64,000 nt of DNA from Phanerodontia chrysosporium (taxonomy: Eukaryota > Basidiomycota > Agaricomycetes > Polyporales > Phanerochaetaceae), in NCBI GenBank assembly GCA_001910725.1, contig MJGA01000025.1, positions 372,001-436,000 of the forward strand, written 5' to 3'. The translations under genes and the position numbers were made by a program. The notes beneath the pieces were generated by a model, which was not told the DNA's origin, ran no database searches, and saw only the letters and a list, made by a program, of their open reading frames with translations. Below, piece after piece: positions 41,821 to 64,000 of this stretch (positions are counted from its first letter, which is position 1; each line of letters opens with the position of its first letter).

Positions 41821-43079
41821 TTATGCCTAGATTCTTGCTGTCGGTTCAGGGTACATGTTGGGTTCAGGATGGGGCTAAGTACGGGTTCATGGTTATTAGA
41901 GGGTTAAGGTGGGTTTAACTAGGGTTGAAGGTGAAGTATCTGAAGTGGTGCTGAGACAGCCTATGCGCCGCGAATGTTTTGACACACTCGCGGCGAACTG
42001 ACGTGAATGGTCATGGTCCCATATACACATGGGTCAGCCGCGATTGTTTCGTGACAGTCGCGGCGATGCCTACCTTTTTTCGCGATCATGGGCATTTGCA
42101 GCAGTCTGAGCCATTTTTTAAATTAAATAATAATCATATCGCATCCAAATAAAATCGCAAAAATAGGGGTGCATCGCCGCGAGTGTTTCGTGACACTCGC
42201 GGCGATACCTACCATTTTTCGCGATTTTTTCATGGTTGTTTGCAGCAGCCAGACCCAATATTAAATTAAATAATGATCATATCGCATCCAAATAAAATCG
42301 CAAAAATGGGGGTGTATCGCCGCGAGTGTTTCGTGACACTCGCGGCGATGCCTACCATTTTTCGCGATTTTTTCATGGTCGTTTGCAGCAGCCTGACCCA
42401 ATATTAAATTAAATAATGATCATATCGCATCCAAATAAAATCGCAAAAATAGGGGTGCATCGCCGCGAGTGTTTCGTGACATTCGCGGCGATACCTACCA
42501 TTTTCTGCGATTTCTTCATGTGCACTTCGGTGGCCTGAGTAATTGTTTAAATTAAATAATAATCATATCTCATCCAAATAAAATTGCATGAATTGGCATA
42601 TATCGCCGCGACTGTTTCGTGACATTCGCGGCGATGCCTACCATTTTTCGCGATTTTTCCATGGGCGTTTGCAGTCAGGATTAAATAGTTATTCAAGAAT
42701 GAAATCCTAAATTATAAACTGCAAGTACAGTGTTTTACCACTTTTTGAGAAACTAATTTTTTACGATGATGAACCCATATTGACATGGGTCAGCTGCAGG
42801 TGTTCTGTGACATATGCAGTGGACTGACACAGATCAAGGGTCATATTGATATGGGTCAGCCACAACTGTTTCAAGACACTTGCGGCGAACTGAGTCACTT
42901 TTTACATTAACTAATAATGATATCTCATCCAAATAAAATCGCTGAAATTGGCACAAATCGCCACCACTGTTCGACAACATTCACGGCAATTACTATTATT
43001 TTTCGTGATTTTGCCATGGGCATTTGCAGTTAAAATTAAATGATTATTCAAGAATGAAACCATAAATTATAAACTGCTG
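41820..43079 (+). repeat. Repeat A, copy 2 (longest, about nine hairpin units)
   Basis: Starts TTATGCCTAGATTCTTGCTG directly after the gag frame. The first ~330 bp differ from copy 1 by only a few bases. It has more tandem hairpin units than copy 1 (near 41966, 42037, 42174, 42316, 42461, 42601, 42795, 42855, 42957), some with a GGGGTGCATCGCC variant. Unit number therefore varies between copies, as in tandem arrays that expand by slippage or unequal exchange. Confidence 0.8.
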
Positions 43080-44345: not shown

Positions 44346-44700
44346 GATAGGTTATTTGTTACTGTGTGATATGGTCTGGGATGCTGTTTTGTCGAGCTGT
44401 CGATTTGTGCTCAGTTTGTGGTGTGTTTGAGGTGTAGCTTAGTGACAGAGAGGTGAATAACAAGTTTTAGAATGTGAGAAATATTTTGATTTATTGTAAT
44501 GTGTGAAAATGAGATGAAGTATGTTTTTTGTTTGGATGCTGTGATGGAGGTAAAGGTTGAGAAGGAGAGTTGTAGAGGTTGATGAGAAGGTGGGGTGAAG
44601 GTAATGATGAGCTGTTTATATGGTGAATGGAAGTGAGGGTAAGTTATGGAGATGTGTTGAAATGAGGTTATGTTAGCAAATAGGTGAAGTGATGTAGTTA
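44346..44700. other. Cytosine-depleted segment
   Basis: No gene. From 44461 to 44700 the plus strand holds 4 C and 82 G in 240 nt. The rest is A and T. See the separate finding. Confidence 0.85.
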
Positions 44701-45103
44701 TTATGCCTAGATTCTTGCTGTCGGTTTAGGGTACATGTTGGGTTCAGAATGGGGCTAAGTACGGGTTCATGGTTATTAGAGGGTTAAGGTGGGTTTAACT
44801 AAGGTTGAAGGTGAAGTATCTGAAGTGGTGCTGAGACAGCCTATGCACCGCGAATGTTTTGACACACTCGCGGCGAACTGACATGAATGGTCATGGTCCC
44901 ATATACACATGGGTCAGCCGCGATTGTTTCGTGACAGTCGCGGCGATGCCTACCTTTTTTCGCGATCATGGGCATTTGCAGCAGTCTGAGCCATTTTTTA
45001 AACTAAATAATAATCATATCACATCCAAATAAAATCGCAAAAATAGGCATATATCGCCGCGAGTGTTTCGTGACACTCGCGGCGATACCTACCATTTTTT
45101 GCA
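44701..45103 (+). repeat. Repeat A, copy 3 (truncated)
   Basis: Starts TTATGCCTAGATTCTTGCTG and is nearly identical to copies 1 and 2 through three hairpins, ending in CGATACCTACCATTTTTTGCAA at the edge of the inverted-repeat region. The remaining units are missing, so the inverted-repeat cassette or a deletion replaced them. Confidence 0.8.
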
Positions 45104-46018
45104 ATTATACTGGTTTTTTACTGGTACCTTAGGGCTTAGGTTACCCTCCAGGCTTTGACTTTTATTTTTGCGAAATAACGAGGGGTATCCCCGACACATT
45201 TCAACCTGTGTGAAATTATGGAACGTGGAAATCCATGAATCGGGATCGATTATGTATGCTGCAAGCATGAGATCAAACTTATAAAAAATGACTGAATCTC
45301 CGATGGCTGCTCGAGCAGCGATCGGAAACGGTCCAGTCATGGCAGGTAACACTGCGTAAAACCAGTGTTACTGTCCGATCACTGCTCGAACAGCGATCGG
45401 GAAGCACTGACAATCGAAGGCAGCAAAGGGAGCGAGTATACCCATGAGCCCCGATCGCTGCTCGAGGAGCGATCGGAGTGAGGGCTTCATTGCACAGAAG
45501 GCACTTCGATCACACCCCATAGCAGCCAAAGTGACAACAACTTGTCATACGCAAGCGACAACAGTCTGCATATCATGACATGCTGGTTTTCAAGTCACCA
45601 GTCCCTCAATCATGTAACCACCAACAGAGATCGTGAATAAATGTCAGAAGTGTTTATGCCTCGAATAAATCGCCCTCGGTTCAGGGTAGATGTTGGGTTC
45701 AGAATGGGTTAGAGGTTCAGAGGGTTCAAAGAGGAGTTGACGAAAAGGCATTTGTGCCACAACCAATTTCACAGATGTTTGTGTCGGTCACATAGTAGAG
45801 ATCATACTATCTGGGATGTCAGAAATTGCGTATGTCTGCCACAAACATATTTAAAAAAACAAATGCAAAGGCGGGAATGTCCATTCCACCGCCATCAGCT
45901 GGTCGATCTATCTGCAAACAGGTGCATACAACATGTGATCAAATTCTTATCAGTAGCGATCTCGCGCAAGGGCAGTGCTGAGCGACTTGAAAGACCACCA
46001 CCACCATCCACCCTCGTA
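45104..46018 (+). repeat. Left inverted-repeat arm / cassette upstream block
   Basis: Inverted partner of 48047-49000. The outer part (CTGGTACCTTAGGG..., TCCAGGCTTTGACTTTTATTT) matches the right arm less well. The inner ~250 bp before the start codon (45760-46010) differ from the right arm at only about two positions. The block holds three 26 bp palindromes (45300, 45375, 45451) and a segment related to the head of repeat A (TTATGCCTCGA near 45655, GATGTTGGGTTCAGAATGGG). It acts as the promoter region of the gene at 46019. Confidence 0.8.
45300..45476. repeat. 26 bp palindrome cluster A (3 copies)
   Basis: Copies at 45300-45325, 45375-45400 and 45451-45476. Consensus left arm CCGATCGCTGCTC, right arm GAGCAGCGATCGG with no loop, built around CTCGAG. 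Each copy carries one or two mismatches. They lie upstream of the cassette gene at 46019. Confidence 0.9.
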
Positions 46019-46674
46019 ATGTCCAGCACTACCGATTCGCGTGCCGTCCCCGAAGAGGTCGAGGATGGGGAGCATGCCTCACCTGGCGTAAGTAAGGTTT
46101 TCGCCGAGTTGAAGATGGTACTGATGAAGAGTTTGGCAGAACGGAGATGGGAGCCCGGTGCGCAACCGACAATACGTGTTTGAGGAGCATTGGAAGTTCG
46201 AGGGTTTGTCTGGGCCGTGCTACCGCGATCGAAATTGGGACAACTTCGAGGGAGATTTCGCAGAGTACGCACGGCAGAACGATGACGCTGAGGACGTCAA
46301 GAAGGCCAGGTTCGTGTGCATACTCCACAGCGCGCGGGCGATTGCTGGAATGATCCTGAGGATGAACCTGAATATCAACGACATGTCGCGGGGTGACGAG
46401 GCCTGGACGACGATCCGTGACACCGGGGTGAGTTCGTGAACGACATTGATGCATAGTGTGAAAGCGGGCTTACTATCGAATCCAGACGTATTGTCGGGAG
46501 CATTTCGGACCGAGTCCCTGGAACATTGCGATGTATCACCTCGTGCGGAGTCATGGTCTGCACTGGCTTAGGACCTTTCAGCGCGATTTCATTTTTACTA
46601 TGTCCGAGAGTTTCGACTTTGAGTTCACATTGCATCAGGAGCTCGCGCAGCGCGAGAAATGTCGCTACTTGTAA
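46019..46674 (+). CDS. Cassette family protein 1 (orphan)
   Basis: Not recognised. Exons 46019-46087, 46140-46427 and 46486-46674 give 181 residues with exact phases and good splice sites. It is acidic at the N-terminus (AVPEEVEDGEHAS), with a central helical part (NWDNFEGDFAEYARQNDD, KKARFVCILHSARAIAGMIL) and a C-terminal exon with NIAMYHLVRSHGLHWL. No signal peptide or membrane span is seen, so it is probably cytosolic or nuclear. The minus-strand gene at 47379-48046 has the same exon structure (first two exons of identical length), and the gene at 50796 is a more distant member. Exons differ far more between the pair than the promoter or first intron. Confidence 0.7.
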
Positions 46675-47378
46675 CTAGTATCCCTCGTTATTGGCATGTT
46701 TGGTCGTGAAAATCTACAACTCGGGGTCAGTTATGTATGCTGCAACAATGAGATCAAACACATGAAAAGCGACTGAATCTCCGATGGCTGCTCGAGCAGC
46801 GATCGGACAGCGTACACTGATGAGAGGTGACAACGAATAGAACCAGTGTGGCCATCCGATTGCTGATCGAGCAGCGATCGGGTGACAACAGATAATGAGG
46901 TTGGTAAGGTCACCCGATCACTGTTCGAGCAGCGGTCGGGGAACCACCAACAATTGAGGGCATTGGAGAGAGGCAGCATACCCATGGGCCCCGATCGCTG
47001 CTCGAGCAGCGATCGGAGAGAGGCATTCATTGTGCAGAAGGCACTTTGATCGCTCCCCATAGCAGGCACAGTAACAACCACTTATCACACGCAAGCCACA
47101 ACAGTCTTCATATTACGACATGCTAGGTTTCAAGTTACGGGTGCCTCAGTTATGTAACAACAAACAGAGATTGTGAATCAGTGTCAGTAGTATGCAAATG
47201 TGACTGCTGGAAGACAACAAGTCGCCTTTCATCGTCGATGTTAGAATACAAGCAGTTTATACGAATGTGCCCTTATCTTAAAGCCCACCATAAATCACAC
47301 AAATTATTTCTCTTCCTCGGGATAGACTGGATACATTTGAGACCGATTTGTACAGCAGATAACGCACATAGCAATGAG
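46675..47378 (+). repeat. Central spacer with a third, geneless copy of the upstream block
   Basis: From about 46690 to 47200 this repeats, in direct orientation, the block seen at 45230-45655: ATCAAAC, GACTGAATCTCCGATGG, CCCATG(G/A)GCCCCGATCGCTG, CAGAAGGCACTT and GACATGCT blocks in the same order. No gene follows; instead the 3' end of the minus-strand cassette gene begins at 47379. Confidence 0.7.
46781..47016. repeat. 26 bp palindrome cluster B (4 copies)
   Basis: Copies at 46781, 46856, 46914 and 46991. Variants include a TTGCTGATCG left arm and a GCGGTCGG right arm. Confidence 0.9.
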
Positions 47379-48046
47379 TTATTCATAGAAGCAGATGCAC
47401 CTTTCGATCTGAGAGAGCTCCTGGTGGATTGAGTCCTCAAACGGGAGCGCGTAGTCACCGGACCACTCATACTTGAACTCGCGGTTGAACATCAAAAGCA
47501 TCCGCAGACCATGACTCCACACGAGGTGACGCATGGCAATTTCCCACGCAGTCTCTCCGTATTTCTGGATACACTCCGGCTGGGTTCAACAGTGAGCTCG
47601 CTGTCGCACTATGCATCATGATCGTCCATCAACTCACCGCGAAATCGCGGAGGGCGGTCCATGCCGGGTCGCCGGAAGTCATTCCGTTGATATCCAGGTT
47701 CATCCTCAGGATCTGGCCAGCAATCGACTGCGCGCTGGTGAGTATGCGCACGAACCTGGCCCTCTTGACGTCCCGGGCATCATCGTTTTGCCGAGCGTAC
47801 TCTGCGAAATCCCCCTCGAAGTTGTCCCGATCTCGTTCGTGGTACTTCTCCCCAGACAAACCATTGAAGTCCCAATATCGCTCAATCGCGTATTCTACCT
47901 CGCGGAGCATCCTCCCACGTCGATTCTGCCAAACTCTTCATCAGTACCCTCTTCACTTCAGCGAAAACCTTACTTACATGAGATGAGGCACGCTCGCCAT
48001 CGTCGACCTCTTCGCTCACGGCACGAGATGGAGCGTTTGTGGACAT
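47379..48046 (-). CDS. Cassette family protein 2 (orphan)
   Basis: Inverted partner of the gene at 46019. Minus-strand exons 48046-47978 (69 nt), 47925-47638 (288 nt) and 47579-47379 (201 nt) give 185 residues. Exons 1 and 2 have exactly the same lengths as in the partner. Shared core: DRDNFEGDFAEYARQNDDA, KRARFVRILTSAQSIAGQIL, NLDINGM. The last exon (CIQKYGETAWEIAMRHLVW, SHGLRMLLMF, ending ICFYE) aligns only loosely with the partner but well in layout with the distant member at 50796. Function unknown. Because the two genes converge, read-through transcription would give complementary RNA over the similar exons. Confidence 0.7.
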
Positions 48047-49000
48047 TATGATGAGGGGGTGGTGGTGGTTGTCTTTCAAGTCGCTCAGCACTGCCCTTGC
48101 GCGAGATCGCTACTGATAAGAATTTGATCACATGTTGTATGCACCTGTTTGCAGATAGATCGACCAGCTGATGGCGGTGGAATGGACATTCCCGCCTTTG
48201 CATTTGTTTTTTTAAATATGTTTGTGGCAGACATACGCAATTTCTGACATCCCAGATAGTATGATCTCTACTATGTGACCGACACAAACATCTGTAAAAT
48301 TGGTCGTGGCACAAATGCCTTTTCGTCAACTCCTCTTTGAACCCTCTGAACCTCTAACCCATTCTGAACCCAACATCTATCCTGAACTGAGGGCGATTTA
48401 TTCGAGGCGTAAACACTTCTGACATTTATTCACGATCTCTGTTGGTGGTTACATGATTGAGGGACTGGTAACTTGAAAACCAGCATGTCATGATATGCAG
48501 ACTGTTGTGGCTTGCGTATGACAAGTTGTTGTCACTTTGCCTGCTATGGGGAGTGATCAAAGTGCCTTCTGTGCAATGAAGCCCTCACTCCGATCGCTCC
48601 TCGAGCAGCGATCGGGGCTCATGGGTATACTCGCTCCCTTTGCTGCCTTCGATTGTCGGTGCTTCCCGATCGCTGCTCGAACAGCAATCGGGTGGTCCTA
48701 CCAATCTCGTCAGCTGTCGCCACCCGATCGCTGTTCGAGCAGTGATCGGGCCGTAACACTGGTTCTACACAGTGTTAGCTGCCATGACTGGACCGTTTCC
48801 GATCGCTGCTCGAGCAGCCATCGGAGATTCAGTCACGTTTCATACGTTCGATCTCATCTTTGTAGCATAAATAATTTGTATTTTCCGCTTACGTAATTCG
48901 ACATAGACTGGAATGTGTCGAGGATACCCCCTTTTACTTCGCAAAAAAATAAAAGTCAAAGCCTGGAGGGTGACCGAGGCGCTGAGGTACCGGTAAAAAA
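48047..49000 (-). repeat. Right inverted-repeat arm / cassette upstream block
   Basis: Reverse complement of the left arm. It includes the near-identical promoter segment, the repeat A head-like segment (near 48400) and four palindromes, and ends with TACCGGTAAAAAACCG near 49000, matching CGGTTTTTTACTGGTACC-like sequence near 45108. Confidence 0.8.
48590..48824. repeat. 26 bp palindrome cluster C (4 copies)
   Basis: Copies at 48590, 48666, 48724 and 48799, upstream of the minus-strand cassette gene, mirroring cluster A. Confidence 0.9.
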
Positions 49001-49406
49001 CCGCTATAAAATTTTGAAGAGTTTAATAATTGAATTCAATGGAGGGAATGGATGGAAGTTGCGGCTTCCCCGGTCGGCTGACACCAGAAGGGCGGGCCGT
49101 CTGCATGAATGCTAAATAACAAAATTGGGCCTTGTTTAAACGAGAGGAGGGTCAGGATGCGCAGAATGAGATGGGACGGTCAGAATCTGTCAATCCGTGA
49201 AGCAATCAAACCGTGCGTGTTCCGCTGTCGCGTCTTCCTGGCGTGTGATCAATGGAGTGTCATGTGAGAAATTCATATGAGTGGACAGGGCCCAAGATTA
49301 GATTGTACATGCTTGGCGCTCTTTCTTTATTGTACTGTTACTGTGGATGGTAGGCGACAGGAAGCTCTCTGTTCGCCCCCCTCCCCCTTTTCTTTCACGG
49401 ACCACG
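49001..49406. other. Spacer and promoter of the SAM-like gene
   Basis: 406 bp outside the inverted repeat. No palindrome, repeat or gene is visible. The last 40 bp are a C/T-rich tract before the ATG at 49407. Confidence 0.4.
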
Positions 49407-49919
49407 ATGATTCCGGTTCCAAGGTCGACATCGAAGTTCCGCGGGCTCACTTCGATTGAAGGAATGACGGCGGGAGAGAGGAGGGAACTGATCGTGCGTT
49501 GGTGAAGGAACTTGGAGGGTCGATTGAAAAGCTAATTGAAATATTGTTGTTGAATGTGCAGAAGGTGGCGAGGGAGGAGTATCCACGGTTCATCCCTGTG
49601 GAGAGGCGTTGGGGTGATCGGTCTGCAGCAGAATACGAGTCACTGCGGAACAAAGTGAGTGCTGAGTAGGCTGAATTGGAAGGCAAAGATAGAAATATAG
49701 CGAGGTGCTGATGTACGATATAGGTGATGGAGAGATGCCCGTTCCTTGGACGGTACGAGGAGGGGTGGCCGCTGGAGGTGTATCTACGAGCACACGTGAC
49801 GAGCCAGCAGTGGCGGGCTGAACAATCGTTGAAGAAAAAAGGCAAGGGGCGCAAGGCGAAAGAGAGTGAGGAGGAGAATGAAGAACCTATGGACGAGGAG
49901 GAGGACGAGGAGGAGAAGA

Positions 49920-49980
<61 letters not shown>

Positions 49981-50338
49981 AGATGAACTTGTTGAGGAGG
50001 AGGACGAGCAGGCTCAGGGAAGCAAGGATGGCAAGGTGATGGAGACGATGCAGGCTGATGAGCCTGAGGAGGTCGGGAGTAGCATGGCTACTCAGGATGC
50101 GAGCGCTCCAGTCGAGTCAGGTGGGGCTGTCCTGGAGTTTCTCCGAAACCTGCAGCTCCCGCTTGACACGTACCTCGATCGGTTCCTGGAGGCAGGTATT
50201 CGGACGGAGGAGGATTTGCGCGCGGTGGCGAATCTAGGTGAGGATAATTATTTGAAGATGCTCCGTCATGATATTGGGATGACGCTTCTCGACTCCCGCC
50301 GTGTTGAGTCTCGGTTGCGGGAATTGTATCTTCACTAA
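49407..50338 (+). CDS. SAM-like domain protein with acidic repeat
   Basis: Two exons, 49407-49654 and 49724-50338, give about 287 residues. The N-terminal half (ALVKELGGSIEKLIEILLL, REEYPRFIPVERRW, GYEEGW-like segment RYEEGWPLEVYLRAH) is not recognised. A low-complexity Glu/Asp tract follows, encoded by a GAGGAC hexamer microsatellite at 49920-49979. The C-terminus (VLEFLRNLQLPLDTYLDRFL, GIRTEEDLRAVANLGEDNYL, RRVESRLRELYLH) has the five-helix pattern of a sterile alpha motif, a protein or RNA interaction module. One base is missing near 49484 (GGG where GGGG is expected) to join MTAGERR to DRALVKEL; with it, exon phases close. The start at 49407 depends on this correction. Confidence 0.65.
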
Positions 50339-50795
50339 GTGCCATGTAATGTAACAATAGTTGTCTGTTTGTAGTAGATATTGTTGGCCAACTTACGAGA
50401 GTTTACTGTTGAACGGTGCGAGACTCCGATGGCTGCTCGAGTAGCGATCGGGGGATGGCGGACATTGAGATTGGTGCTAAGTCGCCCGATCGCTGTTCGA
50501 GCAGCGATCGGAGAGGCACTACCGTTCAAGACAGTGCGCAGGAATGATAAACACGTGCTTCGGCTATCAAGCGTGGGAACAATTAGTAGATTACAAATCG
50601 TCACATCGCCCGTTCGCTGTCGAACGCAGCTTCAAGAGTACCACCACCTCATCGAAGTTAGTTGATATGGCACATAACAACCAAGGCGAGGGATTGAACG
50701 GAGGAGAGCCGAGGCGAGGAGAGCGGTGAGCCATTAAGCTAAATGAGGTTATTGAGGTTAACGTGGTAGGATAGGCTTTGGGGGAGGAGGCAGCG
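50339..50795. other. Spacer with palindrome cluster D
   Basis: 457 bp between the SAM-like gene and the third cassette gene. It holds two palindromes and no gene. Sequence around the first (ACTCCGATGGCTGCTCGAG) resembles the cassette upstream block. Confidence 0.6.
50426..50511. repeat. 26 bp palindrome cluster D (2 copies)
   Basis: Copies at 50426-50451 and 50486-50511 with the same 26 bp length and core as the other clusters. Confidence 0.9.
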
Positions 50796-51322
50796 ATGTC
50801 CAACGATGGGAGGGAATCGGCCTTTGACGGGCTATCAGGTGAAGCTTATGGAGAGGAAGCATATGACCTGGCGGACGGTATAAGCGAGGACAACATGGTT
50901 GGGAACGCCGAGGAACGAGAAGTTGCTTTGAAGAAGGCGAGGCTGAGGCGAATCGTGTCAAGTGCTTGGCAGATTACGTCGAGGTTGCTAGAGCTGGAGA
51001 AGTTGATCCCTGATATGCAGGCAGGAGATCTGACTTGGTTGGTAGTCCAACATGAAATCGTAAGTGACTGGAGGACTGAAAGTCATTGATGGAGGACTGA
51101 CGGCGGGGTGGTTGTGGACAGAGGCAGTCCATTGCTCGATACGGAATGCATGCGTGGCAGCTGGCTGCCTCTCATGCAATCGAGTTTCATGGACTGGAGC
51201 GATTGGGCCAGTTCCCAGCGGCTTTCTACTTCGATCCTGAGGTGGGAATTGTTCATGGATACCGAAGGATCGCGCGAACGCTTATGGAACGGGATGACCG
51301 CTGCTACGAACGTCGAGAGTGA
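50796..51322 (+). CDS. Cassette family protein 3 (distant orphan member)
   Basis: Two exons, 50796-51059 and 51122-51322, give 154 residues. The first exon parallels exon 2 of the other members (ALKKARLRRIVSSAWQITSRLL matches the KKARFVCILHSARAIAGMIL region, and IPDMQAGDLTW matches INDMSRGDEAW). The second exon is 201 nt, as in protein 2, with ARYGMHAWQLAASHAIEFHGL aligning to QKYGETAWEIAMRHLVWSHGL. The acidic 69 nt first exon and its intron are missing. The family relation is inferred from this alignment by eye. ATG 50796 is the first methionine before the homologous part. Confidence 0.6.
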
Positions 51323-52186
51323 ATTTAATTATGGGTATCCATCATCGAAACTCAGTAATAAATTTCATTGTGTTCTATTTTATATCGGACGAAGAGGAAG
51401 ACATGAGACGAGATTCCAAATTTGTGAAGAAAAGGACGGGGTTGGCTAAGGCCTTCAGACTGCAGGCCAGTGTGAATGGGATGGCCTGACAGGATGTGAA
51501 GCGTGATACAGGCGCCCGAGCAGAGCTTGCAAGTTAAGACCAAAGTCAAAATAAACCACTCACAGAAATGGCCATGTTTGCAGACGGAGCGTTTGCAGAG
51601 ATAGAATATTCTCCCGATCGCTGGACGAGTAGCGATCGGAGTGGCACAACGAGAATGGATGCAATCATCCGATCGCTACTCGACCAGCGATCGGAAAAGA
51701 GACACCATATTGGCGCAGGATTGAATTGAGAGGTGTCACCGACCGCTGGTCGAGGAGCGATCGGGGAGTCAGGCAACATGCCCAAATTCCTGCGCAATCC
51801 GATCGCTGCTCGACCAGCGGTCGGAAGAGCGAGGTGAATTTGATGGGACAGCGTAGTGACAGCCAAACATGCTGCGAAATTGCATTCTCGCCATTCCTGA
51901 GTGCTCCCGATCGCTCCTCGAGCAGCCATCGGGAAGACACAAAAAGTTATGTCCACATTGAGCCTTATCAAATAAATTAATTAGTTGTGTTAATTCCAAA
52001 TCTGGACGGCGTGCAATCGATCGCATGCTGATCGAGGCGTTTTTTACTCACTCAACCACCACTCGGTCGAGAAACTCGCGAACAACAGCAACAGCAACAG
52101 CAACAACAACAGCAACAACAACAGTAAGTGGGACATTGTCATTAGGGTGCAGAGCAAGTCTGACAGGGAAGGTCGCCCTAGGAAAC
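51323..52186. other. Spacer with palindrome cluster E and a CAA/CAG microsatellite
   Basis: 864 bp without a supported gene. It contains five palindromes (51614-51932) and, just upstream of the large gene, an imperfect CAACAG/CAACAA tract at about 52083-52122 that probably lies in its leader. Confidence 0.7.
51614..51932. repeat. 26 bp palindrome cluster E (5 copies)
   Basis: Copies at 51614, 51669, 51739, 51799 and 51907. This cluster has the most core variants (CTGGACGAGTAG, CTACTCGACCAG, CTGGTCGAGGAG), yet the outer CCGATCG/CGATCGG arms stay. Confidence 0.9.
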
Positions 52187-55100
52187 ATGTCTGAAAAATC
52201 GAAATCTGGTACACGGAAGGCGAGGTCGTCTCTCGCAGCTGCACCTGAGGCCGGGTCGTCGGCGACAGGGCGCGGCAGCAACGTGGCGGGAGATCGCCGT
52301 GGAGGATCGGAAGGCAAAGGAAAAGGGAAGGGAAAAGGCAAGAACGTGACGATCGACGAAACTACGGTGCGCTTGATACGTCATGGGAACTCCTGTTGGG
52401 AGTTCCCTGCAGGGTAAAATGAAGTGCTGACGTGATGAACAGAAGCAAAAGGTTGACGTGGAGATCCAGAAAAAGACAAGCGAGCTGGAGAGGACGCACA
52501 CAGAGCGGCTGCAGCAGTTGTCCAAGGCCGCGAAGAAGGCACTGCTCGGACATGCGCGGATGAACTTGTCAGAAGGCGCGTCGGTCGAGCTCGAACACGG
52601 TATCTACAACACGCGCGCGCTCCTGAAGCAGGCTATGCAGAATCTGAAGAACGGCATGATCGAGGCTGGCATCCGGCGCTGCGACGCGACGTCGGTGATT
52701 CTGATTCCGGTCCACGTCAAGACGCAGCTGAAGCCCGACGCGGTCGAGCGGCTGAGCAAGTGCCGGGACCTCGACCGACTGCGCGAGCTGTCGATCTCAG
52801 AGGCAAGCGAAGAAGAGTGGCCGACGGTCGAGTCGCTCGTCAAGGAGGACGTCAAGATGTTGCCCTCTTGTGGTGGACAGCACCGTCAGGCGGCGCTGCG
52901 TGCGGTTCTCAAAACTGCGGAGACGCAGATCGCGGCGGCGATGCAACGCTACGCGACGATCGAGGCCGATCTGGGGAGCCTTCAGGACCAGGCTTTGAAA
53001 GAAGACCTCGCGAGCGAGAAGATCGGCGCGGAGCAGCCGTCGGCACGGCGCAAGATCTTCCTGGAGGAGGAGAGAGAGAAACTGCTCATGTCGATGGCGA
53101 AGTGGGAGAGGATCCGGAAGGATGGCGGGCTCTGGACTGTGGCTTTGTATGACGCTGGTGAGTGCGAGGCTCGAGTGGAACGCGTCTCGAGGGAGCTGAA
53201 AGTTGTGCGCAACAGATTTATTGGCTATGGACGATTTGTACGCTATGGCAAGGAACGAGGCGGACCCCAAATATGTGGAATCGAACGAGGAGTTCTTGGA
53301 CATGCTGATGGTACAGGTGGCGCAGATGCGGGACCGCTACATCTACAGCGAAGGCGAGGACGGCGAGGCGGCGGCGGCGGCGGCGATGGCTACTGCGGCA
53401 AGCGAACTGGAGGGTGTGCCGCACGCGGTCCAAGAAAGCAATCGGCTCAAGGAGAGGGCGCGGCTTGCGATGGAGGAGGTGAAGACACTCGAGGCGAAGA
53501 TCAAGGCTGCGTCGAAGGCGAGGCAAGACGTGTCGGCGTTGAAGCAGGAGCTCGCGGCGGCGAAGGTCGAGGCTTCGGAGGCGAAGACTGCTGCAAACGA
53601 GGCAGTCGCGGCAGCTGAAGCAGCGCGGGTGAAGGAGACGGAGGCCGCGATGAAGGAGAAGAACACGAAGTCGCGGGGCGTCATGGACACGCTGAAGCAG
53701 AAGGCGAACGACAGGGCTGGCAATAAACTGGGCCCTGTCATAGGCCTGGTACGTTGCGAGCATGCGGTCGCGTTCTTGATCCGTGTGGTGCGTGGACGCC
53801 GTGCGCTGGCTCGGCATCCGCTGTGGAAGGTCCCGGAGTTGTTCGCGCATCTGCTTGGAACGTCTGGAGCGGTGAGTTCGGGAATGTTTTCTTTTGGTGC
53901 GAACGAACTGTGACAATGTGTTTGTGCGGGCAGATTACATCGGAAATAGTGGACACGCTATGGGAGCGGATGGACGCTATGGGGCGAATGGTGGCGGAGT
54001 GCGGCTCGCAGCAGGAGGTGAGGACGTGGGTGCAGAGCCTCGTCGAGAAGAGTGACACGCTGGACGAGAAGACGCTGAAGCAGAACGAGGAGGAGCAGCG
54101 TGGATGCTGGCTGCGGTACCTGGGGAACCCTCGCCAGAAGCCGTCGTACGACATCCTCGAGGACCTGCTGCCGGTGATCGACGAGGCGTACCTGGAGGCG
54201 TTCCCTCGTACATCGGACGGCGAGCCGAGCGACGCGATTATGGCGCTGACGGCGGATGGAAGTCAATCGCTGGGCGAGGAGAAGATGGTGATGAAGGCGA
54301 TGGATCACTACCGGAACACGCTGTTGGACAAGATCGAGAAGGTGGTCGAGAGGTTCGGCAAGAAGGAAACGCGATACTCGGAGTCGCAGAAGGCTTTGTG
54401 GCGACAGGTCGCGGCGAAGGTTCACGTCTTCACGACGCTGGCTGGGTTTCCCGAAAGCTACGTGCCGCGTATGCCTCTGCCGTCGTACAGCTTCATCCAG
54501 GACTTGATGCGTCGGCTCGATCTGAGCCAAAGCGGTATCGCGATGGTGAGTACTGCTCGACACTTCGTATCCACGTTCACCACACGTTGTCCTCCCCCGA
54601 CCGCTGTTCGAAGAGCGGTCGGGGCGAGGCACAGGTGCTCGTTCCCCGACCGCTCCTCGAGCAGCGGTCGGGGCGAGGCACAGGTGCTCGTTCCCGACCG
54701 CTCCTCGAGCAGCGGTCGGGGCGAGGTGCAGGTGCTCGTTTCCCGACAGCTCCTCGAGCAGCGGTCGGGGCGAGGCGTGCGTGCTCGTTTCCCGACCGCT
54801 CCTCGCGCACCTACACCTCGCCCCGACCGCTCCTCGAGGAGCGGTCGGGGAGCTCACTTACTATGCACAATCCTCAGTTTACCTGGACCCAACACTAATC
54901 AATGTCCCACAGGCGTGTTCGATGATTGACCCCAGTATCCCCACCCTCGTCAGGAAGTCCAACAGCTCACCTCTCGTCGCCCGCGATGTCTCGGATGCTG
55001 CCCGACGCGCGCTCATGAATCCCAATAGCGGCATCGAGTTTGGGTCAGACGAACGCGCTCGGAAAGAGGTATGTACATAATCTGTCATACCGTACAACGG

Positions 55101-58100
55101 CTCACTTCATGTTCCCAGCTACTCTGGACGCTATTCAACGCCTGCCCCGTCACCTTGTACGAGCTCACCTTCTTGGCAGACAAGATGCCACCGCGTCTCG
55201 TCGACAAGAAGGTCCAGGTCAATGTCCTCATGGATCGTTGGACTCTCAGCCCCCACATCGACCTCAACGAAGCCAAACAGTTGTACGCCCGCCGTCGCGC
55301 CGATACCTCCCTCCAGAACCAGAAATATATGAAGGCCATCAAAACTCTCTTCGGCATCAACAAACGAGGCGCCTCGAAGGTAGAAGATCTCGGAATCGTT
55401 CCCGACAAAGACGTCGTCGACCCGGATGCCGACTACGTCCCTGGCACAGATGCCATCGTAGCCGACAACGGCGAGGACTTCGACGACGGTGACGAGATCG
55501 ATCCCAGCGACGATGACAACGACGACGGCGACAACGACAACGACAACGACAATGACAACGACGACGACGACGACGACAACGAGGGTGACGACGACCGCGA
55601 CGACGAGAACGACGATGACGATGCGCTGAACGAACACCATTCCACCGAGAAGGACGAGAACGACATGGATGAAGACGACGACGACAGCGACGAGGAGCCC
55701 GCCCACAAGCAGAAGCAGAAGAAGTCCGCGCTCAAAGCCAGGCCCAAAAAGACCACTGCGACCAGGGGGCCGAGGCCGTCCACCTCGCGTGCGAAGGGCA
55801 AGGCACGTGCGACAGTCTTGGATGAACCCGTCGAGACAGACGTCACCAAGGGCGTCAAGGGCAAGGGCAAGGCCAAGGCCAAGGGCAAGGGCAAGGAAGT
55901 CAAGGCCGGAAAAAGCAAGGGCACGGGTAAGGGCAAGGGCAAGGACAAGGACAAGGACCCTGCTCCCGTTGCCGACTCCGGTTTCGTCGACATTTCTCCC
56001 TACCGCGAATGGCTGAACCCGACGAACTTCCCCCTCCTCGAGGTAGTTCAGAATATCGTCGACGACCTCCAGTTCTGCAAGCCCATCATCGACTCATTCG
56101 TCGTAGGCAAGACGACAGAGCGTCGTTGGAAAGACTCCCACCTCCGCGAAAACGTTCCCTCATCCATCCCCGCGCAGTGGCTGCTGCGCATTCACTACAA
56201 CTATCCCGCCATCGGCAGCAACTCAACGCGCGTCATCGTCCGTGACCTTCTCATCGCCCTGCACTTCGAATACGCATACTCGACGGTCGTGCTCTCAAAA
56301 ATCAAGGACATGATCGTTTTCCGCAAGACCCGCGACATCCTCCAGGACGTGCTCGACAAGTACTGCCGCCCATCCCTCACACGCGACCAGCTCCTCCTCG
56401 TCAGTCAGCGCGAATGGCAGTGGCCAGACAGATACCGCGTCACTTTGAACGACGCCGATTACGATTGGTGCGCCCCATCCGCAAGCGACACGAAGTTCTG
56501 GCTTGTCCGCCGCGCGACGATCGCCAGCGAGAAGCAGAAAGTCCTCGCGCCCATTCTCAAGGCCCTTGGGCTCGCATCTGCGTCGGCATTCAACCCCGAG
56601 ACCTCTCAGGTCATGCCTGGGTCCGTCTCACAGTCCGTCTTCTTCGCTGCGCAAGGATTCCTCACGGTGAGAATCCTGAAGCCGTCTCGCCGCGTTACTT
56701 GCTCACCCTTCGTACAGGCACTCATGGGTAACATGCAGCACAAGTACGAGATCGAGAAGATCAGGCTCCAGTTGCGGAACCAGCACCCGGAGAGGGAGAC
56801 GCGCGAAGTCCTCGAGAAGAGGCTCGAGGAGGAACGGTACTTCGACCCGTCGAAGTACTGGAACATGTATCCGCTGCCGACCGAAGGGATTCGAACCGTG
56901 GTTGACTACGACAAGGCATCACCCTGGAACCTCAACGCGCTGACCTCCTTCGATCCAGATGGCCCACCTCGCGTTCCGTTGACGAGGACGCCTCCGGCCA
57001 ACTCGGGATCAGACTCGGCTGGCAAGGGCGCGACTTCAGACGCGATCGAGATCGACAACAACGAGCTCGTCATCGTACCCAAGTCGTTCGAGGTCTATGT
57101 CGGTCAAAAGCGCACGTATACCCCACCCTCAGCTCAGGAAGTTGCGGCAACGACGTCTCCGGAAGCAGCTCCCTCGACGCCCAAGAAGCGGAAACACAAC
57201 GTGACGTCTTCGCCGCAGAGCGGTTCCACCGGCGAGACCCCCTCGACGAGGTTGGCGAGGAGTGGTTCCGTGGTTCGGTCACCTGTGAAGAAGAAGGCCC
57301 GCCACGACGAGGGTGAGGTCTCGGCCGTGGACGAAGACGTCGAGATGGATGAGGCCGACGAGCCTTTGACCAATCTTGCGTCGACCTCCGCTTCCAAGCC
57401 CAAGCCCCGCCCTCGGCGAGCTGCGTCGAAGACACCGCAGTACGCTATGGCCGGTGAAGACTGGGACTCGGGCTCCTCGGACGAATACGCTGACGATGGC
57501 TCCAGCAGCGAGCTGTCGACATCGGACGACGAGGGAGTATCCGAGTCTGACGACGAGCTTTCGGACGACCCCGAGCTGCGGCAGTACGTCGCTGAGGCAC
57601 TCGCAAGGAAGAAGGGAAAGGAGTTGGCTATGATGCACGCTGAGGCTGCGTCTCAAGCTGCGCAAGACGATCGCCATCGTCGGGCTGAAGCTCAAGAACG
57701 AGAACGCAAGTTGCGCAGAGAGAAGCGGCTCTCACGTCGAAGGGGACAGGAGCAGGTCGCGGCGCGAAATATCTCTGGTGAGTTCGCCCATTTCGATGTC
57801 CCTCCTTCGATCGCTCCTCGAGCAGCGATCGGATTGCGTACGCTTCCCCGACCGCTCCTCGAGCAGCGATCGGATTGCGTACGCTTCCCCGACCGCTCCT
57901 CGAGCAGCGATCGGATTGCGTACGCTTCCCCCGACCGCTCTTCGAGCAGCGATCGGATGTTGCATACGTCTTTCCTGATCGCTGTTCGAACAGCGATCGG
58001 GTTGCGTAAGCTCTATCCGATCGTTCTTCGAACAGCGATCGGATTGTGTACTGCGTTCCCGACTGCTCCTCGAGCAGCGATCGGATAGCGTACGAGTTCT

Positions 58101-59106
58101 CAATCTTCTGTCGAGAACCAACGTTTCCCCGATCGCTATTCGAACAGCCATCGGGAATCTACACTCTTCTCGTCTTCAAGTATTGTAGGCTAATTGCTTC
58201 AATTCGCCAGATGACATAGACATGCTCAACTCCGAGGAGGAGAGGGAGGTGCTGCTCGACTCTCATGCCAATGACGAGCACGAGGACCCCGACGTCCACG
58301 GCGATACCGAGGACGAGGACCAGGACGAGGACCAGCACGAGGACCAGGACGGCAGCGGCTCCGATAGCGATGGCCGACCATCAGCTCCTGAAGGCTCGCA
58401 GTCTCCTTCCCCAGAGCCCGACCAATCGCTCGCATACGACAACCCTGCCGACATCGCTGCTTCATCACAGCTCACGTTGCCTCCGTCACAGCTCCCGTCC
58501 TCGTCGATCACCGATGCAACCCCGTCATTCCCAGGCGTCGTCCGCCACAGTCGCACGAGCTCGGAGTCCAGTCTGTCGTCCCTTCCGCCCACTCGCCGTT
58601 CATCGTCCCTCGCACCTGCCGCACCCGACTCATCGCTCCATCCCCCTCCGCCCTCACAGCCCAGACGCTACCCTCGCCATGGTCAAGAGTTGTTCGTCCC
58701 GCCCCCAACCGAAGAGTTCGACCGCCAGTACGCTGCCCAGCGCGAACTTGAGCTCGACGCCGCGCGTTTCGACGAACTGCCCCAATCGTCGGCCCCCTCC
58801 TTCTCACAAGGCCCCACCCTCGCCATGTCGCATCGCCCCTCCGCTGCCACCAGATCATCGACGCCCGCCGCTCCCTCACCTCACACTCCCTCCCGCACGC
58901 AACCAACCTCCCCTGCATTCGCACAAACCTCTCAACCCTCACACGATGACGACATCGAAATGCACCACGAGGAGGAAGAGTCACGCTCGTCGCCCGTCGA
59001 AGACTTCCCACCAGGTCCAACCACCAGGCAGAGGGCGTCCCGCGCCCCGATCACCATGGAACCTCTTCGCCCCTCGTCATCTCGTACGAAGCATCAGAGG
59101 CGCTAA
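52187..59106 (+). CDS. Large orphan protein X1, 1940 residues
   Basis: Not recognised. Eight exons (52187-52366, 52443-53157, 53216-53871, 53934-54545, 54913-55068, 55119-56666, 56718-57777, 58211-59106) join with perfect phase into 1940 residues. Layout: basic Gly/Lys start; helical, coiled-coil-like region (TSELERTHTERLQQLSKAAKK, ALKQELAAAKVEASEAKTA); a folded part with LLWTLFNACPVTLYELTFLAD and LMDRWTLSPHIDLNEAKQLY; an acidic Asp/Asn/Glu tract near 55500 and a Lys/Gly repeat near 55880; a second folded part (WLNPTNFPLLEVVQNIVDDL, FLTALMGNMQHKYEIEK); then a long Ser/Pro/acidic tail. There is no catalytic motif that I know. Introns 4 and 7 (367 and 433 nt) carry palindrome arrays; the others are 50-76 nt. 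The first half is G-rich and the second C-rich on the coding strand, so two genes read as one remains possible. Confidence 0.7.
54546..54912 (+). repeat. Palindrome array F inside intron 4 of X1
   Basis: Five full copies and one half copy at 54597-54848, spaced about 48 bp with nearly the same spacer (GGCGAGGCACAGGTGCTCG). Here both arms have changed together: left CCGACCGCT, right AGCGGTCGG. The intron keeps GTGAGT and CACAG ends. Confidence 0.9.
57778..58210 (+). repeat. Palindrome array G inside intron 7 of X1
   Basis: Eight copies at 57808-58154, spaced 41-43 bp in the first part with the repeated spacer ATTGCGTACGCTTCCC. Left arms are often CCGACCGCT while right arms stay AGCGATCGG. Confidence 0.9.
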
Positions 59107-59670
59107 ACTTCACTCGTCCCTCCACTCCCTCCCGTCACCGTCACCGTCCCTCGCCCTCCATGTCCCATGAGTACATCGCGCGTTCGTCATCATCGTCCAT
59201 AGATTACATGTACTTTTACTGCACTATTTCTATCGTATAATTTCATTCTCGCTTTCTCATCATTTTTCTCCCTCAAAACACTCGTGCTGTCTCCGCAACG
59301 CTCAGGTAAGCCACTTCATTCCCTTAGCCACTACCCACAAATTCGCAACGTCCTCCCTGGGCCTTTAGATATAGCACCGGTCTGTGTCTTCGCTCCCTCT
59401 CTTCCGTTCCCACCCTCCCCTCCCCCATGACATGAGGTACACCACACTAATGCGTTTTACACCTCGCTTACAACCATATCAAGTCACATCAATCGATATC
59501 GCTCCGTTTACATGTTTTTCCCCATCATCAACGGATTATCGCGCAGCAATTTTCCGGTTTTTAATCCTTGCCAAAGTCATTTCACCCGCGCGCACCCCCC
59601 TCCCCTCCTCCCTCTCATCACCTCCTTTGAAATCGCACATCTCTTCCTTGCGCAGACGACACAACACAAT
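59107..59670. other. Intergenic spacer, C/T-rich
   Basis: 564 bp between X1 and X3. No palindrome occurs here. It is strongly pyrimidine-rich on the plus strand near 59370-59430 and 59580-59650, as expected for a fungal promoter. No gene is visible. Confidence 0.5.
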
Positions 59671-62600
59671 ATGCCTCCTGTCAAACCCACCTCTGTGACC
59701 CATAGGCAACTCGCTCCTGATCGACGCTCATCCCAAGTCCAGCAGGCGCTCGCAATGGACGCCATGCTTGCAGATCCGTACGTTCTCCTCTCTATGCTCT
59801 TCGACATCCATCGCTAACTCTGTCCAATCGACTTCCTCATTCATAGCTCTTCTCGTCCTGTCAATGAAGTAGAGGTCGACCTCGCTGCACCTCCCTTCGC
59901 CTTTCTCGCAAACGACGCCGTCCCTCAGAACGACGTCAACAACTTCTTGCGTTTGTACGATCGCTCGCACGACGATCGCGACTTCCATGACTCCCGTCGC
60001 AAAGAAGTACTTCTATCCAAGCTCCGTTACATCTACAAAAAGGGCACCGTATCTGACAAGATACGCCTCCTCACCTCACGCCACAAGGTCGTCATCGACG
60101 ATCACTACATCCGCCCCGCGAGCCATGCTTCCATCGCTCTCGATATGTCGTCTGGCACCATGGACTTCAAATTCTGCGTCCCTCGTCAGCCCGGCTTCGG
60201 CGCAGTTATTCCAAACACTATCGCCGGACTTCATTGGTGTTGGAAGCTGTTCATCACCCGTGCTCGCTTCTTCGCAAACAAACATGCAAGGCTCGGCTTC
60301 GACCCCGTCGGCTCCATGCTTTACATCGGCACCGCAAACGACGAGGATCTCTGGCTCGTCTTCGCTCCTAACGACTTCTTTCGCGACGACCCCCAAATCG
60401 AGTACAAACCTCCGGGCACCATCTCTGGCGATCCCAGGCTCTCACATATACACTGGTACTACGCATGCATCTGGCTCGCTTTCGTTATGCGCAAGCGCGG
60501 AATCTCAGACGTTACTTGTAGCGATGAGATGTATTGGAACCTGGACGATCCCTCCTTGGATTCTCTCAAGGAGATAACCAACATCCTGTGAGTACATTGT
60601 CCTTGTCTTTGTCTTTGCCATTGTCGTCGTCCGTTTCCCCCTGCCGCTCTTGCGGCATCATGATGACGTTGACTTTGTCAGCCACTTCATGCCCAGTCAT
60701 CGCGAACCACGATCGCTCTTCGAGCAGCGATCGGTGCAACTCGGTCCCTCGACCCCTCGTCGTCGCCGACACCCCGATCGCTGCTCGAGCAGCGGTCGGA
60801 GTTACCCCCCTCATTCTCGGTCCCTCGACCCCTCGTCGTCGTCGATGCCCCGATCGCTGCTCGAGCAGCCGTCGGAGTTACCCACCTCATTTCAACGTGG
60901 CGTCCTCCATGCCACTTTCACCGACCGCTGCTCGAACAGCGATCGGGAGCCCCTCCCCTGAACTCTCTTCACCTCCGTCTCCAGCACTATTTCACTGACA
61001 TAAATATTTCCTCGAGTGAGGGCGGTCGAACCCTACAGCTTGATGCTGTCGTCAAACTTCATGATCACTGGAACAACGACTATGAAGACTTCCGACACAG
61101 ACTGCCCGACAACGTCAGCGACTGGTTCGCAAAGCGCAAGCCTATGGTCATCTGCTCTCGCTACGGTCAGAACAAACCCATCAGCACTGCTCCCGACACA
61201 CTCGAAGCTTACGCGCAAGAGTGGCGGACCCTCCACAAGTTCGAGAACATCAAGTTTCTCTCACTCGCTCTCTCCACCGATGTCAGGTCAGTTATTCCAC
61301 TACCACACCCCATCCGTTTCCACTTTCCCTCAATTCATCCATCACCTGTTCTAACCGCCACCTCCCCTCAGAGCCGACTTCGTCGACACCTACCATGCCA
61401 TCCCCGACGAAGAGATCTACCAAGATCACCCAGAGCTATACACCCATTGGGACCCCGAGGTTCGCCAACATCTAGAGCTCGACGACCTCCTCGCGCTCCC
61501 TCTCGCAGATGAGGACAACAACCAAATTCACATCTACGACGCTGACGGCTACCTTGTTCCTCGCACCGTTTCTGTCCCTGCTTCCCCCGCTGCCATGCTC
61601 GTCAACTTCAAACGAATCGACGACCTTTTCATCAGCTCCGCCCAGCACACATCGCGTTCCTACACCCATGACGACGGCGAAATCAACTCAGGCCGTCCCA
61701 GCCTCTACACAATCTATCCTCAAGCTTGCCTCCATCACCTCGGCCACCTCCAGGCCACTGTCCTCCCGCGCCCTCATCGTAACTTCGTCAGCAACCTGAA
61801 CAGGGCCGTCGGACTCACTCATTGGGTCGACGAGGGCGAGTTCGGAGACTCCAGCGATGACGACGAGCTCGAGCGCCGTAGCCAGGCAAGCCTTCATCCT
61901 CACCAGGAAAAGATCACCGAGTCCCCCATTACCACCAGTGCTCTTCAAATTTACGCCCTTCCCATGCATCGCAGCAGACGCACCGCCAAACACCACGACG
62001 TTCAACGCGGTCAAATAACCGCTTCCCTCGCCTACCATTACGTCACGTCCACTCCCGAGACCAAGACCCTCAATAACATCAAGGATCAGTTCAAGGCCGG
62101 CCTTCCGCATCAACGCTTCAAAGAGAAGATCAACACCCCGGAATTGCCTCGAGAGTTGCGCATCGAAGTTGTCTATCACTTTGACATGTGCAAGCTTGAG
62201 GACAAGTATTACGACGGCGCGTAAGTTCCCTCTCACCTACTCGTTCCTCGCCCGCATACTCACCCCACCTCCAACCCTTCTCTCCCCCATTTCTCACGTC
62301 GCTACATCCCTCAGCGTATTCTTCAAGGAAATTGTCTCACCCCTCATCCGCTCCTGGTCGCACGGCAGCCTGAGAGAAGATATTATCCCACATTTCACAG
62401 CTATCGACACCAAGGTAAGTATCAACCTTTTGCTGCCGTATTCCCGAACCATCGTTCATAGAGTCCCTTCATCGACCTCAATCGTACGCTAGGTCTACCC
62501 CCAGCTTTACAACTGGACAACCCAGGGCTTGACCACTCTGCTCGAGCACCTTCATGACCAAGGCACCATGACCGAGGGCGCCGGTACTCATGTTCCATCA

Positions 62601-64000
62601 CATTTCATCGATCTTGTCGCCAATCTAGAGCGCGCCCTCAGTTATTGCCACACCGGCATCGCACGCGTCATGACTCGAAGTACCATGGACCCCCTCTGGC
62701 TGTCCACAAGCCTGCTCATCGACGGTATGCCGTGTCTGAACCCAGACATTGTCTCCATTACTTTCCCAAACGGCCTACCCAAAGTCGACGTTTCCCTCCA
62801 CAATTGGCCTTGCGAAGACAACGGAATAGTCCCAAAGTCTGCCGCCCGCGCAGGTCTGATCTATCACTATGGCGTCGATTTATGTGCCGTGAGTAAACAT
62901 TTTGTTCTCTGCTCTTCACCGTCGAATCGCACTTCTGTTCTCTCCAATCACTTCATTTCCGTCGTCGTGTTCATGTTCATTGTTTCCCACTGGTGTCCAC
63001 CGATCGCTGCTCGAGGAGCGGTCGGTTTCTCCCCGTGCTTTCACCCCCTTTCACCTTCGTTCCCGATCACTCTTCGAGAAGCGATCGGCTCTCCTCTCTC
63101 CCTACCTCACGCCTCTCCGTTTCCGATCCCTGCTCGAGCAGCGGTCGGATTTCGCCTCTCCCTACCACACGCCTCTCAGTTTCCGATCCCTGCTCGAGCA
63201 GCGGTCGGATTTCCCAGCCCCTCACACACTCCCCTTCGTTTCCGATCCCTGCTCGAGCAGCGGTCGGGTTACCCTCCCTCGCGACGGAGTCAGTAACATG
63301 TACTACATCCTACCCCCTCATACAACCCCATGGCTTTCAACCTCCTTCTGGATGGATACTGATTGTCCATCATCCTCCAGCGTTTTCAAGCCACCTTCTC
63401 CCTCGAAATCCTTGGCGCGAGGTCCGCTTTCAATGCGAGTGATCCATCAAAGACCGTCTCATCGGCATCTCGCGCCTTCGACCTCTGCGTCGCCTTCTGG
63501 CGCGTGTTCGAGCAGGAGACAGTTGCTTGGCTCCTCAACGAACTCGAGCAAGACATTCAGAGACAATCTCGCTCCCACCAAGCCCCCGGTGACAACGATA
63601 TCCCCCCGAAGATCGCAAAGAAGCTCTTCGTTTTCTCTCCCAAAATTGCGAACATCCCCTTTCCCTCGCTGGAAGCGCTCACCTCTTGAACGTCGTCGCA
63701 ACAACGAACGACGCTCGTCTCGACTACTTGCCCGCTAGTTCCACCCTCCCTCAAACCACCCGTTTCGAACTCTGTTGGAATCTCATCAACAGTTGCCTCG
63801 ATAACGACAAGCCCCCCACCGCTCCGTTCACCTCCACCTCGTTCGCATACCGCCTCCTCCTTCGCCTCTATCACTCTCTTCCATCTCTCTACCCCGACTT
63901 CTTTCGTGACCCCACAAACAACAAAAAGGCTATCTGTCACCTTCTCCAATCCTCTCTTTTCGAAACCGGCATCGTCTATCTCCCTTTCTTCGACACTCCG
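59671..64000 (+). CDS. Large orphan protein X3 (3' end outside window)
   Basis: Not recognised. Exons 59671-59777, 59847-60587, 61017-61286, 61372-62220, 62315-62414, 62493-62888 and 63381 to the window edge give at least 1028 residues. It appears folded throughout: FLANDAVPQNDVNNFLRLYD, IAGLHWCWKLFITRARFF, GSMLYIGTANDEDLWLVF, WYYACIWLAFVMRKRG, LDAVVKLHDHWNNDYEDFR, LHHLGHLQATVLPRPHRN, RAGLIYHYGVDLCA and RFELCWNLINSCLDND. It is rich in Trp, His and aromatic residues and has few low-complexity parts, suggesting an enzyme or a large binding protein, but no motif is decisive. One base is missing near 63687 (after SLEALTS), after which the frame runs openly to the edge. Introns 2 and 6 (429 and 492 nt) hold palindrome arrays; the others are 69-94 nt. 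Confidence 0.75.
60588..61016 (+). repeat. Palindrome array H inside intron 2 of X3
   Basis: Four copies at 60709-60946. Two spacers share CGGTCCCTCGACCCCTCGTC. The splice acceptor at 61016 (CCTCGAG) was chosen because it alone keeps the frame into GGRTLQLDAVVKLHDHW. Confidence 0.85.
62889..63380 (+). repeat. Palindrome array I inside intron 6 of X3
   Basis: Five copies at 63000-63267, spaced about 60 bp with related spacers (CCTCTCCCTACC...CACGCCTCTC). Left arms read CCGATCCCTGCTC, right arms GAGCAGCGGTCGG. Confidence 0.85.

Follow-up and report, generated by a model that had tools for sequence, protein, structure and literature searches.

Clustered 26-bp palindromes in the introns and spacers of a chromosome-end element of Phanerodontia chrysosporium: candidate sites for a dimeric DNA-binding protein

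The stretch analyzed here, referred to as the window, is 64,000 nt of Phanerodontia chrysosporium contig MJGA01000025.1 (C64), and its right-hand part is occupied by a subtelomeric element of ~22 kb, F1, that is repeated at chromosome ends and runs to a TTTAGGG telomere (Table 1). The element carries four small genes (A, A′, B, and C) and two large, intron-rich ones (genes 1 and 2). A and its inverted partner A′ (65% amino acid identity) form an arm-to-arm pair at the inner end of the element (45375-48691). The gene models are predictions from open frames and splice signals, supported for gene 1 also by agreement with its homolog in a second element family, F2. For gene 2, no open model was found on C64, where the frame is apparently broken in the last large exon (after window position 63380). 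Open copies exist elsewhere, and the copy on contig C55 is modeled with 1,362 amino acids and seven introns, a model that scored highest among 84 open solutions. One open frame of gene 2 is shorter in C64 and C44 (395 amino acids) than in C55 and C113 (472 amino acids). The protein sequence of one gene 2 exon shares 45% identity with a P. carnosa protein and 78% with a protein from an ENA contig. No protein homologues were found for 55185-57791, a search that did not cover the GGQHR domain of gene 1, and no gene 1 relatives were confirmed in viral and prokaryote contigs.

Table 1. Features of the window, in window positions
Feature	Position	Strand	Remarks
F1 subtelomeric element	45104..64000 + ~3.7-3.8 kb beyond window to telomere	+	inner end ~45104
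F1 cluster 1	45300..45476	.	3 sites, upstream of gene A
F1 cluster 2	46781..47016	.	4 sites, between converging 3′ ends of A and A′
F1 cluster 3	48590..48824	.	4 sites, upstream of A′ and B
F1 cluster 4	50426..50511	.	2 sites, 3′ of gene B
F1 cluster 5	51614..51932	.	5 sites, 5′ of gene 1
F1 cluster 6	54597-54848	.	5 sites and the half copy, gene 1 intron 4
F1 cluster 7	57807-58154	.	8 sites, gene 1 intron 6
F1 cluster 8	60709..60946	.	4 sites, gene 2 intron (430 bp in C55 copy)
F1 cluster 9	63000..63267	.	5 sites, gene 2 intron (450 bp in C55 copy)
Gene A	46019..46674	+	approximate limits; 66 genome matches, 9 of them gene C-like
Gene A′	47390..48047	-	approximate limits; diverged inverted copy of A
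Gene B	49407..50338	+	approximate; acidic; weak SAM-like end, below Pfam cut-off
Gene C	50797..51322	+	approximate; distant relative of A
Gene 1	52187..59106	+	modeled 1957 amino acids, no internal stop, six GT-AG introns, GGQHRxAALR block
Gene 1 intron 4	54546..54912	+	367 bp, holds cluster 6
Gene 1 intron 6	57778..58210	+	433 bp, holds cluster 7
Gene 2	59671..64000, on to base 1091 of locus L023 past window	+	relative of P. carnosa DUF8190 protein
F3-type array	23676..24307	.	similar to array at 42 kb
F3-type array	41968..42885	.	units of 143 bp; probably left over from a different element family
F3-type palindromes	44848..45082	.	inner border of F1 element

Throughout F1 lie copies of a 26-bp palindrome with the consensus CCGATCGCTGCTCGAGCAGCGATCGG. 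At up to 3 mismatches, 34 sites were found in the window and none in 100 shuffles. At a looser limit (up to 7 or 8 mismatches) there were 40 sites in nine clusters between 45.3 and 63.3 kb, with a half copy spotted by eye near 54,795 and no F1 site in positions 1-45,000, in agreement with an earlier note on this DNA that had counted about 40 copies in nine clusters and one half copy, none of them before 45.3 kb. A tenth cluster lies just beyond the window, which brings the total on C64 to 48 sites (40 in the window and 8 beyond). The cluster centers are 1.3 to 3.3 kb apart. Four of the clusters in the window are tandem arrays. The clusters gain or lose sites by whole spacer-plus-palindrome units, with gaps of 40, 44, 49, 50, 70, 72, 140, and 142 bp between copies. 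When exact flanking repeats were sought, direct repeats of 3 to 12 bp flanked none of the 48 C64 sites, as expected from the note's remark that a common target duplication is missing, and 2-bp repeats flanked six (2.9 expected). Because of this, the palindromes are not supported as termini of a miniature inverted-repeat transposable element; their identification as termini of a known family of such elements was an outcome that the note had named as fatal to its view of a repeat specific to this locus. What the sites have in common is the 26-bp palindrome itself; their flanks differ, and there are no terminal inverted repeats around a longer body.

As the note had it, the sites fall in spacers and introns: none of the 48 touches a modeled exon, although some models have approximate limits (genes A, A′, B, and C, and gene 2 on C64). 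Exons make up ~61% of the C64 stretch, and the chance that ten clusters placed at random would all miss them is about 8e-5. Of the 13 modeled introns of genes 1 and 2, the four longest (367, 433, 430, and 450 bp) each contain a cluster, whereas the nine shorter ones (50 to 139 bp) contain none; the other six C64 clusters fall outside the gene models. An early idea that a cluster lies 3′ of every gene was dropped because clusters 6 to 9 proved to be intronic.

The note also took the palindrome to be confined to one 18-kb locus and, as the genes around the copies were unrelated, not to be part of one transposon. Neither was confirmed. The array runs on past the window toward the telomere, and the assembly (39.0 Mb, 145 contigs) contains 477 F1 sites at up to 3 mismatches. 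An even spread over the genome, the other outcome that the note saw as refuting, is unlikely because 18 of the 19 contigs in the matches listed (100 of 954, both strands) also carry gene A. In 223 kb read from nine contigs, where the segments outside C64 were picked for having matches, there were 283 sites at up to 7 mismatches and 238 at up to 3. The genes sit in one repeated element, with whole or partial copies at 96 to 99% identity on C33, C44, C55, C57, C60, C63, C88, and C106. The palindrome is specific to this family, whose subtelomeric copies are many. The end of C64, ~3.7 to 3.8 kb past the window, consists of TTTAGGG-type repeats. The copies on C55 and C64 both reach the telomere, although the last 2.3 kb of C55 are only 81% alike, and the truncated copies on C57 and C60 join TTTAGGG repeats directly. 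On C21, telomere repeats immediately precede the inner end of the element, as in stacked subtelomeric elements. Not all copies are at the very end, since a partial copy on C63 lies 74 to 83 kb from the telomeric end. One further region, C44:860598-918418, is a 23-cluster array of inverted and diverged element segments (68 to 78% identical DNA) and forms a large composite subtelomere.

Related elements carry palindromes of their own. Homologs of gene 1 (~35% identity) are found on contigs with the F2 palindrome (C63, C93, C116, C117, and C85), and further ones at similar identity on C73, C21, C79, C117, and C82, among which palindromes of a third type, F3, were read on C82. The F2 palindrome is CCGCGCGTGTTTCGAAACACGCGCGG, with 68 genome sites at up to 2 mismatches, and of the 31 sites in the loci read, 25 match it exactly. 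The F3 sites are versions of CCGCGAGTGTTTCGTGACACTCGCGG, with 30 genome sites at up to 1 mismatch, and their outer arms are steady while the center varies. Both are different 26-bp palindromes from that of F1, yet they occur at corresponding places (F2 positions were read on three contigs and gene-linked F3 positions on one). In all three families, palindromes lie 5′ of gene 1, in the gap between gene 1 exons D and E (intron 4 in F1 and F2), and in the gap between gene 2 exons G and H. F1 and F2 share a position in another long gap farther along gene 1, which follows a GTGAGT donor, and F1 and F3 share one in the gap following gene 2 exon H. An F3 gene 1 copy on C21 ends short of intron 4, and the stretch read there therefore lacks a palindrome. 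The distance between palindromes tracks the distance between gene 1 proteins. F1 and its paralog F1b (63% amino acid identity in gene 1) have the same palindrome type, F2 and F3 (57%) differ at 4 of 26 positions, and F1 differs from F2 or F3 (30 to 33%) at 12 to 14. The F3-type palindromes inside the F1 border in the window lie in 143-bp tandem units (23526-24373, 41818-43421, and 44700-45106) that are ~97% alike, and 42176-43421 is 98.5% like the C82 sequence adjoining an F3 element gene. By this resemblance, the arrays may be remnants of F3 elements.

Conservation within the palindrome is uneven and mirror symmetric. Over 104 distinct F1 sites, the entropies of the two arms correlate with an r of 0.97 (reached by none of 20,000 permutations), and the near-invariant blocks CCGA, CT, TCGA, AG, and TCGG are kept in at least 99 of the 104 sites at each position, with a spacing of about half a helical turn. 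The sites also changed more slowly than the spacers between them in three of four F1 comparisons and two of three F2 comparisons, significantly so, although misaligned repeat units may contribute to these figures. For F1, the substitutions in palindromes and spacers were 36/1118 and 105/1232 between C64 and C55, 30/883 and 95/974 between C55 and C44, and 1/390 and 16/486 between C64 and C63. For F2, they were 1/130 and 56/191 between C63 and C116, 2/78 and 33/118 between C63 and C85, and 1/78 and 8/118 between C85 and C116 (P = 0.09). Intron 4 of F1b has the same start and contains four F1-type palindromes. With the palindromes masked, its first 330 bp align to F1 intron 4 with a score of 17.0 against a shuffled mean of 16.7 (reached by 95 of 200 shuffles), and the palindromes alone are recognizably shared between the two paralogous introns. 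Because the masked intron aligns no better than shuffled sequence, descent within whole element copies is unlikely to be the sole cause of palindrome identity.

The reading that we favor, at a rough probability of 55%, is that the palindromes are clustered dyad-symmetric sites for a dedicated dimeric (or tetrameric) DNA-binding protein of a selfish, telomere-associated multigene element. Four alternatives were weighed against it. First, the palindrome may be a selfish mini-repeat without function, which slippage, unequal exchange, or gene conversion spread within an element and which was homogenized within each family. The change of copy number by units of spacer plus palindrome, with gaps of 40 to 142 bp, is what such a process would leave, and so are the tandem clusters and the many identical F2 sites. 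However, in cluster 5, as in the F1b intron, the spacers are mutually unlike and the sites alike; the conservation is uneven along the site and symmetric; the 3- to 12-bp flanking duplications are missing; and slippage leaves unexplained why clusters occupy corresponding introns of different families. We regard this alternative as unlikely, though far from negligible.

Second, the palindromes may act in RNA. In introns and 3′ regions they would form hairpins of 11 bp, capped by a UCGA loop, that aid the splicing of long introns or end transcripts. The clusters do occupy the longest introns and positions 3′ of genes B, C, and 2; both arms differ between families, as they would if they changed together; and F3 retains the outer stem but not the palindromic center. 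On the other hand, A, A′, and gene 1 have clusters on their upstream side as well, and no Rfam match was found in window positions 1-64000 at gathering scores. Compensation within F1 is slight and changes are mostly uncompensated, with 1,126 of 1,352 pairs Watson-Crick compared to 1,110.5 ± 7.6 (standard deviation) after shuffling (48 of 2,000 reach it). Mismatched pairs are frequent; for instance, pair 10-17 is Watson-Crick in only 49 of the 104 distinct sites. If RNA pairing were selected, G·U should exceed A·C in the transcript sense. Among 58 distinct transcript-oriented sites the counts were 33 and 25, which is no clear preference, whereas across all 157 oriented copies, which are not independent, they were 97 and 56. 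The mirror-symmetric and barely compensatory conservation therefore suggests that a DNA site bound by a dimer fits better than an RNA hairpin, and the RNA alternative appears rather improbable. Of the options listed in the earlier note (protein-binding site, recombination site, or RNA element), the set as such stands and the data favor the first; what fails is the locus-specific frame in which they were put.

Third, gene 1 may encode a ParB/sulfiredoxin-like domain, which would load at the palindromes and spread from there, in the manner of ParB/parS partition or of a clamp. The GGQHRxAALR block is alike in four aligned gene 1 proteins. A coiled-coil-like insertion comes next, then a hydrophobic strand, which three of the four proteins follow with YD. 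As we read them, the block resembles motifs of ParB and sulfiredoxin, and the order of the motifs resembles that in ParB. The sites are palindromic, clustered, and spaced along the element, as parS-like sites would be. However, ParB_N has no match in this genome, compared to 11 of 14 control genomes (9 above the cut-off), and none of 12 weak PDB matches is a ParB. In an hhalign profile comparison with 11 ParB proteins, the probability stayed under 2% whether the insertion was kept or removed; with it removed, 78 of 300 column shuffles scored as high, and the alignment was misplaced. ParB homology of gene 1 was thus unsupported by Pfam, NCBIfam, PHROGs, PDB, and hhalign, and no relative was confirmed when viral contigs were scanned with a ParB seed. 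These negative Pfam, PDB, and profile tests make a ParB-like system a bold reading, and a very unlikely one. A broader form of it, built on analogy, has the gene 1 protein loading on family-private palindromes and spreading or bridging, such that the families would form mutually exclusive protein-site pairs in a plasmid-like way; we consider it a long shot. Such mutually exclusive pairs are known from parS and incompatibility systems of bacteria. Finally, the palindromes may be ordinary minisatellites in a subtelomeric segment that was duplicated long ago, similar through recent duplication alone. This would suit the 96 to 99% identity of the element copies but is scarcely credible when the sites persist in a paralog at 63% amino acid identity whose intron no longer aligns and family-specific versions persist at 30 to 33%.

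Each element family keeps its own 26-bp version in the noncoding gaps of its genes. If the palindromes are read by a dedicated protein, as we favor, the protein would probably be encoded by the element itself, with gene 1 or gene 2 the likely source and gene 1 the candidate. Once bound, the protein may coat, bridge, or mark the element, with the outcome that copies are recognized, silenced or boundary marked, or recombined between chromosome ends. Several observations weigh against this. No binding protein was identified among the element proteins tested, and Pfam found no DNA-binding domain in the tested stretches of genes 1, 2, A, B, and C, which did not include every exon. Between C64 and C44, palindromes and spacers did not differ (12/832 and 10/879), and between C64 and C55 the palindromes changed more than the remaining element (3.2% compared to 2.0%). 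Homogenization alone could hold one sequence per family, plain common descent would also make palindrome and protein distances run together, and the G·U excess over all oriented copies leans to RNA pairing.

Two neighboring features of these chromosome ends were also seen. Between the F3 arrays at 23.7 to 24.3 and 42.0 to 42.9 kb, and adjoining the subtelomeric element, 30129-41820 contains a Gypsy-like retroelement, seen as two long frames on the minus strand that have DUF4100 and domains for reverse transcriptase, RNase H, and integrase. A further repeat (GGGGGGCGCGAGACGCGAGCG...) stands behind a short telomere-like motif in two places, where an F3 gene 1 copy on C21 is broken off and where C44 ends. 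Its apparent far end lies before telomere repeats on C21 and also close to the end of C51. This repeat, seen in L045 1700-2400 and L032 2290-2500 (both C21) and in L011 9870-9979 (C44), is possibly a second telomere-capping element.

If an element protein does read the palindrome, the families would offer a natural set of codiversified protein-site pairs and a route to how selfish chromosome-end elements recognize themselves, stay at the ends, and resist mixing with rivals. Being short, the palindrome can also serve as a tag by which to search related fungi for such elements. Four 14- to 16-base pieces of it had no match in the literature searched, a degenerate form had no exact match in viral contigs, and among the matches listed for basidiomycete or Phanerochaete subtelomeres, helicase elements, and intron or spacer palindromes, nothing was recognized as this system. 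For TTTAGGG in basidiomycetes, the literature searched gave no paper. Telomere-adjacent repeat elements are common, but we know of none in which every family has a palindrome of its own at matching introns and spacers.

Several known systems share some of these features. Starships are giant elements with DUF3435 and DUF3723 genes (PMC12134995, PMC10175614). With the insertion left out, the gene 1 domain matched DUF3723 weakly in two of three gene 1 sequences, below threshold (E = 0.04; ~13 bits, where the cut-off is 22), whereas a longer F2 piece had no such match and no DUF3435 tyrosine recombinase captain was found in the tested stretches. The ParB/parS systems, taken as an analogy only, likewise have clusters of short palindromic sites that serve one replicon, but gene 1 has no detectable homology to ParB. 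FoTeRs, MoTeR, and Terminons are telomere-associated retrotransposons and resemble F1 in their telomere location and in truncated copies capped by telomere repeats. However, no reverse transcriptase was found in the tested F1 protein stretches (the one at 30-35 kb is outside the element), and the F1 genes retain introns. A further comparison is with the subtelomeric repeat elements of the yeast Y′ and telomere-linked helicase (TLH) type. Here, too, multikilobase repeats with several near-identical copies adjoin telomere repeats, which stand before the inner end on C21 and on the truncated copies of C57 and C60. In contrast to Y′ and TLH, no helicase was found in the Pfam-tested stretches, and F1 has two large intron-rich genes that lack a Pfam match, together with family-specific palindromes. 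Short palindromes scattered through introns and spacers are also known from fungal mitochondrial genomes, as GC clusters and double-hairpin elements, whereas the palindromes of F1 to F3 are on telomere-bearing contigs and are tied to element families at corresponding positions.

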